Shown piece by piece: positions 756 through 42,638 of a stretch of DNA of 64,000 bases; positions within the stretch are counted from its first letter, which is position 1; the number at the start of each line of letters is the position of its first letter. The translations under genes and the position numbers were made by a program. The DNA lies in contig NZ_CP015600.1 of NCBI RefSeq assembly GCF_001647715.1, positions 372,001 through 436,000 on the forward strand, given 5' to 3'. Below the pieces are notes generated by a model. The model was not told the origin of the DNA and did not search any database. It saw only the letters and a program-made list of their open reading frames with translations. This DNA is from Pseudomonas antarctica. GTDB lineage: Bacteria > Pseudomonadota > Gammaproteobacteria > Pseudomonadales > Pseudomonadaceae.

Positions 756-992
756 AGGTTGGCGCAATGAAATGGCCAAGCGGATAGGTTGCTGCAGGGC
801 AGCTAGGAAGGGGATGAGTTGCCGCAATGGGCACATTGGTAAAAGTAGGCATCCATCACATTGCTGTGACCGTGCGAGCCGCCGGACGCTAATCGCACTT
901 GGGGTGAACCACCACGGTGTGGCGTAGCCTCAAAGGTTCGGGCTACCTGGGTTGCTGTCAACGACAGCTCATTGCCCGATCTTTTCTACGCC

Positions 993-41931: not shown

Positions 41932-41944
41932 CGTAGATCTCCTT

Positions 41945-42032
41945 GTGGGAGCGGGCTTGCTCGCGAAGGCGGTGTGTCAGTCACCCGATGCATTAACTGA
42001 TATACCGCCTTCGCGAGCAAGCCCGCTCCCAC
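41945..42032. repeat. REPIN abutting the aroQ ribosome-binding site
   Basis: GTGGGAGCGGGCTTGCTCGCGAA and its near complement with a short centre. The aroQ transcript, if started further right, would carry this hairpin directly before its Shine-Dalgarno. Confidence 0.9.
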
Positions 42033-42177
42033 ATTTTGATTGGGTTTGCAGATTTCTGGCAGTGTCAGCCAGAGGCTACCTTAGCTTGCGTGCTTGCCTA
42101 CAGGTGAGCCAGAATCCGCCGGCTTGTACGGCTAGCTTGTCGTCTCTAAGGTTGCTCGGTCGCTGCTCATCAGCGAT

Positions 42178-42358
42178 CAGGTTTAGTAGCCTGAGGGTTA
42201 AGTTAAGTCGTACCACTCCGACCTTCATGGCGGCTGTGCGTAGGGCACCTTCGGGTGCGCCGGCTTTTGCTTAACTTCCCCGGTCTACTAACCTGCGCAT
42301 AGCTGCCACCCTATCGTTTAGTAGCGAGTCGATGGCGGCCTCATTCGAGGAAGTTAAG
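42178..42358 (+). promoter_or_regulatory. Two-state RNA leader of the DUF6124 gene (candidate)
   Basis: A central strand B (42270-42295: CTTAACTT then CTACTAACCTG) can pair with upstream A (42178-42207: CAGGTTTAGTAG then AAGTTAAG) or with downstream C (42317-42358: TTTAGTAG then GAGGAAGTTAAG). The order of blocks in A and C is right for both nested hairpins, and the two are mutually exclusive. C contains the Shine-Dalgarno GAGG of the next gene. Between A and B a CUUCGG-type hairpin (GCACC-TTCG-GGTGC, 42245-42258) would nucleate folding. The design is that of a translational switch; no ligand is known. Confidence 0.55.
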
Positions 42359-42360
42359 AC

Positions 42361-42600
42361 ATGTTCAAAGCAAACCCAAATCCACCTCCATCCGTCTTCA
42401 CCGTCGATCCCGGCAGCGATGACGAGTCCCTGCTGGTCAACAGCTTCGAAGCCTTCTCCTCAGTCAGCACCTTGTTGCTTGATTTGTCCGAGGCGCTGGA
42501 AGGCAAACACCGCGATACCGTACTGGCGATTCATCAGCTCAGTGCTCTCGGCACCTTGATGGTTGGAAAAATGCTCGACCGCCACGCCCCGGCTCGCTAA
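42361..42600 (+). CDS. DUF6124 family protein
   Basis: This 79-residue cytosolic protein resembles the C-terminal part of the Pseudomonas DUF6124 family: a short Pro-rich start (FKANPNPPPSVFTVDPGSDD), then ESLLVNSFEAFSSVSTLLLD, LSEALEGKHRDTVLAIHQL and a final helix. Many family members are longer at the N-terminus. It is preceded by GAGGAAG, which lies in the structured leader described separately. The function is unknown. Confidence 0.78.
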   Translation: MFKANPNPPPSVFTVDPGSDDESLLVNSFEAFSSVSTLLLDLSEALEGKHRDTVLAIHQLSALGTLMVGKMLDRHAPAR

Positions 42601-42612
42601 ACGCAAGGCAAA

Positions 42613-42638
42613 AAAAGACCTCCCGAAGGAGGTCTTTT
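42613..42638. terminator. Bidirectional terminator between the DUF6124 gene and glnA
   Basis: AAAAGACCTCC, loop CGAA, GGAGGTCTTTT is a perfect stem with A- and T-tails. It can end transcripts of both convergent genes. Confidence 0.88.

Follow-up and report, generated by a model that had tools for sequence, protein, structure and literature searches.

A small DUF6124 gene of Pseudomonas antarctica, situated in a 64,000-nucleotide stretch of DNA (hereafter the window, the whole stretch that was analyzed), had in a preliminary description been credited with a possible two-state RNA switch in its leader (42178-42358), built like a riboswitch or thermosensor. Judged from its sequence, this element is instead the C4 antisense RNA of phages P1 and P7, here in a chromosomal copy. 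The DNA itself shows to which RNA family it belongs, how its parts are laid out, that the matched pairings change together, and that they overlap the ribosome-binding site, and on this basis the processed C4 RNA most likely blocks translation of its own DUF6124 mRNA. We hold the proposal as a whole, i.e., that a released C4 represses its own DUF6124 mRNA, that the copies are barcoded, and that a1/b1 is a second binding site, to be highly probable.

A C4 antisense RNA in the leader of a DUF6124 gene

The features of the locus, in window coordinates, were as follows.

42094..42102, + strand: box TTGCCTACA, upstream of the promoter, common to most C4 loci of the P. antarctica genome
42124..42152, + strand: probable sigma-70 promoter, TTGTAC, 17-base spacer, TAAGGT (by eye)
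42146..42197, + strand: c4-a1b1 element, RF03163, with a 5' hairpin (42159-42177) and the a1 hairpin (Rfam, fold)
42182..42189, + strand: target a1, TTTAGTAG; 42183-42189 pairs over 7 bp with 42285-42291
42195..42207, + strand: target b1, GGGTTAAGTTAAG; 42195-42203 pairs over 9 bp with 42269-42277
42223..42313, + strand: C4 antisense RNA, RF01695 (Rfam, 76.3 bits, gathering score 45)
42245-42258: CUUCGG-type hairpin
42264..42279, + strand: loop of the P3 hairpin in C4, antisense to both b1 and b2
42285..42291, + strand: junction of C4, CTACTAA, antisense to both a1 and a2
42317..42324, + strand: target a2, TTTAGTAG; pairs over 7 bp with the C4 junction, 42285-42291
42347-42353: Shine-Dalgarno sequence GAGGAAG of the DUF6124 gene (by eye; start codon at 42361)
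42349..42358, + strand: target b2, GGAAGTTAAG, overlapping the Shine-Dalgarno sequence; 10 bp with 42270-42279
42361..42600, + strand: DUF6124 gene, 79 amino acids (PF19619, E 2.7e-22)
42616..42638, + strand: terminator-like hairpin AGACCTCC-CGAA-GGAGGTCT-TTT, 3' of the gene (by eye)

All the complementary blocks named in the preliminary description were present, with the CUUCGG-type hairpin between them. The central strand pairs, as had been claimed, with the upstream and the downstream blocks (7 bp for each copy of TTTAGTAG, 9 bp for b1, and 10 bp for b2), the block AAGTTAAG is present twice (42200-42207 and 42351-42358), and the downstream pairing of about 10 bp does include the Shine-Dalgarno sequence, as b2 overlaps GAGGAAG. 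The element had been thought undescribed; it corresponds to the Rfam C4 antisense RNA, with its parts ordered as in phage P1. The match to the c4-a1b1 family in the Rfam scan of the window (48.0 bits) lay just above the gathering score of 46.7.

Against the promoter assigned by eye, a consensus promoter scanner called no promoter at the C4/DUF6124 locus; in P1, the annotated P1c4 -10 signal stands where the window has this candidate. A box like TTTCCTACA was found 125 to 166 nt upstream of C4 in 19/27 C4 loci of the P. antarctica genome, compared to 75/738 control windows, for a pattern that was defined after looking and among loci that are related to each other. The evidence that this box could be the site of a common regulator is only suggestive. 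The terminator-like hairpin was not called by the scanner; it occurs in the window and likewise in four orthologues of the locus. At 41944-42033 lies a near-perfect long palindrome, REP-like; miRNA matches in Rfam at this place were discarded, since they were below the cut-offs and caused by the palindrome.

Predicted folding of the leader

The minimum-energy fold of the leader (-89.7 kcal/mol, pseudoknots being outside the model) kept the C4 stem and left loop and junction single-stranded, and C4 alone folded at -45.8 kcal/mol into a long stem, a UUCG-type hairpin, a second hairpin with the antisense loop, and a single-stranded junction. On the + strand, the fold of the leader was not reached by any of the shuffled sequences (z -3.70, 0/200), compared to z -1.95 for the opposite strand of 42150-42400, a value to be expected of a stem's complement. 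The P. antarctica genome held 27 C4 matches above the cut-off, and in an alignment of 26 of these (A2; L035 excluded), double compensatory changes were seen in 7 of the 22 predicted C4 stem pairs, while the ACC following the stem was invariant or nearly so. The RNAalifold consensus behind these 22 pairs and behind our search model R1 misses the P3 stem. R1, employed solely to locate C4 copies, also gave faint echoes of true C4s on the opposite strand.

The preliminary description had envisaged two mutually exclusive cis hairpins. When forced, the upstream hairpin cost 8.5 and the downstream hairpin 11.2 kcal/mol over the minimum-energy fold (pseudoknots again being outside the model), and so the leader does not offer the two structures of similar stability that are asked of a riboswitch or RNA thermometer. 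These energies, together with the Rfam identification as C4, led us to reject a riboswitch or thermosensor as the main reading. Of the earlier interpretation, an RNA element that pairs with the DUF6124 ribosome-binding site stands, and the ligand- or heat-driven two-state switch lacks support.

A cis-acting switch, the earlier idea in a pseudoknotted version, was also considered, in which the C4 arm pairs with a1/b1 first and with a2/b2 later, and a signal (temperature, a ligand, or the timing of the ribosome or of RNase P) shifts the balance. In line with this, the sub-blocks of a1/b1 recur in a2/b2, both pairs compete for one arm, and a1b1, which has its own Rfam family, accompanies C4 both in the window and in P1. 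However, the alternatives are as plain hairpins costlier than the C4 fold by the energies given above, no other known RNA family was found above its Rfam cut-off in the leader, and a passage of PMC8546580 calls P1 C4 trans-acting. We regard such a switch as quite unlikely. Within our preferred reading, antisense repression by C4, an intramolecular (pseudoknotted) mode could still contribute, since C4 and its target would lie on one transcript.

C4 loops and junctions are mostly matched to their own targets

At this locus, loop and junction jointly matched the downstream segment in 0/4000 dinucleotide shuffles and the upstream segment in 64/4000. Single matches were weak, being reached in 117 (loop-downstream), 152 (junction-downstream), and 321 (junction-upstream) of the 4000 shuffles, and the b1 match of the window (loop-upstream), taken singly, was equalled in 764. 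In our judgement, the decisive support is comparative and comes from setting side by side the 27 C4 copies that P. antarctica carries. All 27 loops differed from each other. Loops paired with their own b1 at a mean of -12.0 kcal/mol, compared to -7.9 for the b1 of other loci, and with their own b2 at -11.6, compared to -7.5, and the own-target sums were reached in 0/20000 permutations for b1 and b2 alike. The junction behaved as the loop did in this test, and a reversed-loop control was null (3474 and 10954 of 20000). With energies summed over both targets, the own locus ranked first in 18/27 and among the top three in 23/27; two loops (L019 and L035) had no match to their own downstream segment.

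The matching extended to larger sets. It was seen in 86 loci (27 from P. antarctica and 59 from other genomes, the latter being 60 minus L122 with an unparsed loop; z -21.6 and -23.9, 0/20000 permutations) and in the 34 distinct loops among 78 C4 copies of the named loci (z -13.3 and -13.8, 0/20000; 79 + strand C4 matches minus L142, in 77 loci, with one row per distinct loop). The 30 best-scoring C4 loci of genome G062 (out of 47 matches) and of genome G010 (out of 36) behaved likewise (z -9.2 to -14.5 for b1 and b2, 0/20000). The best loop site had its end close to the start codon, -3 to 16 nt ahead of it, in 23/27, 52/57, 26/29, and 28/29 loci. Both pairings of the preliminary description recur in related loci, with blocks that change with compensation among the 27 copies and between the alleles of the glnA-linked site (see below).

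We then compared barcodes between paralogues, a full barcode being a cross-compatible loop plus the same junction. Three genomes (27, 30, and 30 C4 loci) contained 17 pairs of paralogues at least 85% identical in protein, none of which (0/17) shared a full barcode, one pair having the loop only. Among the named loci, 54/172 such pairs did so (Fisher p 0.004, for pairs that are not independent); pairs with a protein shorter than 60 amino acids were excluded from the counts, and the named set includes some same-genome pairs, which should weaken the contrast with 0/17. At L025 in P. antarctica, a tandem pair encodes identical 111-amino-acid proteins and has unlike loops, with energies of -13.5 and -10.4 kcal/mol on the own b2 and of -4.6 and -4.1 when crossed. 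In another tandem pair (L218, genome G039), the proteins are 95% identical, the loop is the same, and the junction is different. The sole full barcode shared within a genome was that of L266 and L274 of G010 (the pair of L219), outside the 17 pairs; one copy has no frame of at least 40 amino acids starting 30 to 90 nt after C4, and a DUF6124 match with a 68-amino-acid open frame lies there. Together, these comparisons suggest that paralogues avoid shared barcodes in the three genomes.

Two alleles at the glnA-linked site

The window locus is flanked by glnA (named by eye) on one side and by a chorismate-mutase gene on the other, and tblastn found the same setting in related species. In these relatives (L045-L048, L135-L141, and L144), glnA stands beside the C4/DUF6124 copy, and chorismate mutase was seen in all except L136, which is cut off upstream. 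In L143, the chorismate-mutase gene is present, other sequence follows DUF6124, and glnA was not found within the stretch examined. Two alleles were distinguished at this site, the first with loop CTTAACTT and with AAGTTAAG in both b1 and b2 (window, L045, L046, L048, L139, L140, L141, and L143), the second with loop CTACATTC, b1 ATTGTAG, and a b2 like GAATGTAG (L047, L135, L136, L137, L138, and L144). Loop, b1, and b2 have evidently been exchanged together here; a1 and a2 are constant between the alleles, and the promoter stretch is nearly so. In L047, the C4 stem shows a gap in its 5' strand, with b1, loop, and b2 still matching, making it a possible natural C4 mutant.

Elsewhere in the window, two tandem matches to the nitrogen-regulated RNA NrsZ (RF02695; 37793-38154, - strand) lie beside ntrC/ntrB-like genes recognized by eye, and a radC RNA motif (RF01754, 77.1 bits) was found at 849-982 (- strand).

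We rejected a prophage location for the locus, given its chromosomal neighbors and the absence of phage and plasmid matches; in tblastn, the DUF6124 protein of the window matched none of 50,697 phage and none of 72,556 plasmid records. One IMG/VR contig matched the protein at 55% identity, and the 6.2 kb of it that were examined contained no C4 over the cut-off.

C4 is multiplied in Pseudomonas and often precedes DUF6124

Besides its 27 C4 copies, the P. antarctica genome had 23 DUF6124 matches (22 above the cut-off) and 8 DUF3077 matches, three of which overlap DUF6124 matches. By position, 19/27 C4 copies lie directly upstream of DUF6124 (16) or DUF3077 (3), one (L022, at 74749) precedes a BRO-N gene, and the remaining seven stand before small proteins without a Pfam match above the cut-off or before nothing small (L035). 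In other genomes, 49 genes downstream of C4 were scanned, of which 19 matched DUF6124, 6 DUF3077, and 4 BRO-N (matches may overlap). They belong to 60 loci drawn from the best-scoring C4 matches, one per genome, and are biased to typical C4s for that reason; L122 was unparsed, L078, L110, L125, L129, and L131 had no frame, and L085, L095, L109, L118, and L132 were cut short or doubtful.

Chromosomal BRO-N (antirepressor-like) genes preceded by C4 were also recognized by eye elsewhere (L082, L083, L086, and L089). In L012 (C4 at 862231), L075, L076, L084, and others, C4 stands before a 52-amino-acid protein without a Pfam match, and in L012 the stop codon of this gene overlaps the next start (ATGA), recalling the icd-ant overlap of P1. 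Three further copies in P. antarctica (L013, L017, and L021) precede another small-protein family, MNxYxxLTxxD..., for which Pfam gave no match in the two members scanned (L013 and L017).

C4 was found in 92/99 sampled genomes of the genus, P. antarctica included, with a median of 13 copies; 39 genomes had at least 20 copies and 8 at least 39, the best 39 candidates being scored per genome. Scored more fully, G062 had 47 copies and G010 had 36. In a sample of the class, 17/273 genomes outside the genus had C4, none of them with more than 6 copies among the 15 candidates scored for each, and DUF6124 was absent from all 273 searched. In one small genome outside the genus, four C4 copies lie inside 1.4 kb (G459:C9:1700-3092). 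Within the genus, DUF6124 occurred in 78/99 genomes, all 78 of which had C4, and 14 of the 99 had C4 without DUF6124. The counts of C4 and DUF6124 over the 99 genomes were correlated (Spearman 0.89, with kinship ignored and at most 39 C4 candidates scored per genome). In named Pseudomonas genomes, 78/80 DUF6124 loci had a C4 on the gene's strand no more than 170 nt upstream of the match; these loci, the best 80 of 96, had been searched for with proteins related to that of the window, a choice that favors its subgroup. The locus search was built on four closer proteins, an alignment of 14 divergent DUF6124/DUF3077 proteins being too diverse.

Over the first 76 codons, the window DUF6124 gene gave dN/dS values of 0.10 to 0.21 against 9 homologues from named genomes, indicating that the gene is under purifying selection. 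This bears on the idea that the locus is a decayed remnant of phage immunity with no present role, which the phage association of C4 and of BRO-N antirepressor-like genes would fit, as would L035, which has neither a small gene after C4 nor matching targets. Selection on the gene, the loop and both targets staying matched across the tested loci, and the presence of C4 upstream of DUF6124 in nearly all named loci all speak against decay, and we consider it very improbable.

DUF6124 genes without C4

Seven of the 23 DUF6124 matches in P. antarctica lacked C4, and R1 found none nearby on the gene strand; on the opposite strand, it gave a weak match at L040 (19.7 bits, E 0.0037). Six of these genes (L036-L041) have an open frame and a start codon, and the seventh (L042) is a fragment. 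By eye, L037, L038, L040, and L041, along with the DUF3077 gene of L043, keep a promoter-like stretch, the 5' hairpin, and a Shine-Dalgarno sequence without C4. The same C4-free appearance was found in another species (L154), and L197 retains the a2/b2 end only. To judge from these loci, C4 has been lost more than once while the gene was kept.

The C4-free copies matter for a further alternative, an addictive element resembling a type I toxin-antitoxin system, in which DUF6124 would be harmful, C4 its RNA antitoxin, and the barcodes a means of preventing cross-neutralization. The many barcoded copies per genome, the near-identical paralogue pairs without a shared full barcode, and the annotation of icd, the target of P1 C4, as an inhibitor of cell division would all fit such a role. 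Nevertheless, DUF6124 genes exist without C4, most with an open frame and several with a promoter-like stretch and 5' hairpin, and their product therefore seems tolerated; repeated loss of C4 with the gene kept likewise argues against strong toxicity. We think this explanation unlikely.

A model for C4 action on DUF6124 mRNA

From the layout, the probable promoter just upstream would make one transcript containing a1/b1, C4, a2/b2, and the DUF6124 gene. In the computed structure, C4 would fold into its long stem and two hairpins, exposing the P3 loop (b) and the junction (a) as single strands, and RNase P would probably release it from the transcript, after its P1/P7 counterpart, whose processing by RNase P is cited in a passage of PMC11143913. 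C4 would then pair with a2/b2 of its own mRNA, so that the Shine-Dalgarno sequence is hidden and translation is off; this repression may act both in trans and in cis. As the loop and junction barcodes differ among copies, each C4 would mainly silence its own gene. The upstream a1/b1 would offer C4 another place to bind and might serve as a decoy, setting a threshold; the outcome would be a self-limiting lock that keeps a small conserved protein off by default.

More speculatively, Pseudomonas may have turned a phage immunity RNA into genome-wide, mutually insulated, barcoded translational locks (27 here and 47 in a relative) that spread with DUF6124/DUF3077. Selection would keep co-resident barcodes different and drive the concerted exchange of loop, b1, and b2, and each copy would silence only itself and like-barcoded newcomers, amounting to an immunity-like or self-recognition system of the chromosome. 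We offer this as a tentative possibility, which we doubt somewhat more than we believe.

In the open-licence literature searched, DUF6124 was not mentioned, and neither a link of C4 to DUF6124/DUF3077 nor a multiplication of C4 in Pseudomonas was found; the C4 RNA itself is of a known kind, and these two aspects appear to be without precedent there. For DUF3077, a passage of PMC9630843 reports a pseudogene reopened by a base insertion in evolved, furfural-tolerant P. putida. C4 is a classic among antisense RNAs through work on two phages; our results would count it with the regulatory RNAs that occur repeatedly in a bacterial genus, and would give the DUF6124/DUF3077 family, itself unstudied, a first regulatory setting. 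Some genomes offer dozens of such natural pairs, in which the divergence of antisense specificity without cross-talk could be followed and from which orthogonal translational switches might be drawn. Direct tests of the idea are made possible by the natural C4-free copies and by the two alleles of the glnA site.

Comparison with known systems

The leader resembles riboswitches and RNA thermometers in its 5' position and in alternative pairings able to hide the Shine-Dalgarno sequence; it differs in that no sensor domain was recognized and that the recognized fold is that of an antisense RNA.

In type I toxin-antitoxin systems, an RNA blocks translation of a small protein, and paralogues have diversified within a genome. 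Both traits have parallels here, in the predicted block of small-protein translation by C4 and in the diversified paralogues of a genome. The differences are that C4 and its target share one strand, and probably one transcript, with C4 placed upstream, and that C4-free DUF6124 copies exist.

The closest counterpart is the C4 of P1 and P7. According to a passage of PMC12197685, c4 RNA is essential for P1/P7 heteroimmunity; a paper cited in PMC8546580 names a processed 77-base C4 in its title, and PMC2864571 gives gamma-Proteobacteria and phages as the groups with the c4-a1b1 motif. In the P1 record, a1, b1, C4, a2, b2, and icd (annotated as an inhibitor of cell division) follow in that order, which is also the order of the window, and both Rfam models match P1 at that place (68.8 and 51.0 bits). 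The phage and window RNAs share the fold, an a2 that starts 4 nt after the end of C4, and a b2 near the ribosome-binding site. Between P7 and P1, loop and junction differ and the targets have changed to match; the P1 loop gave -10.2 kcal/mol on P1 b2 and -4.9 on P7 b2, the P7 loop -5.2 and -10.2. Spacings are shorter in the window, with 15 nt from b1 to the C4 match (60 nt in P1) and 3 nt separating the end of b2 from the gene's first base (11 nt in P1). The P1 operon is under the repressor C1, according to its record. In contrast to the immI loci of P1/P7, which target icd/ant, the C4 copies described here are chromosomal, occur many times per genome, and would target DUF6124, DUF3077, and other small proteins.
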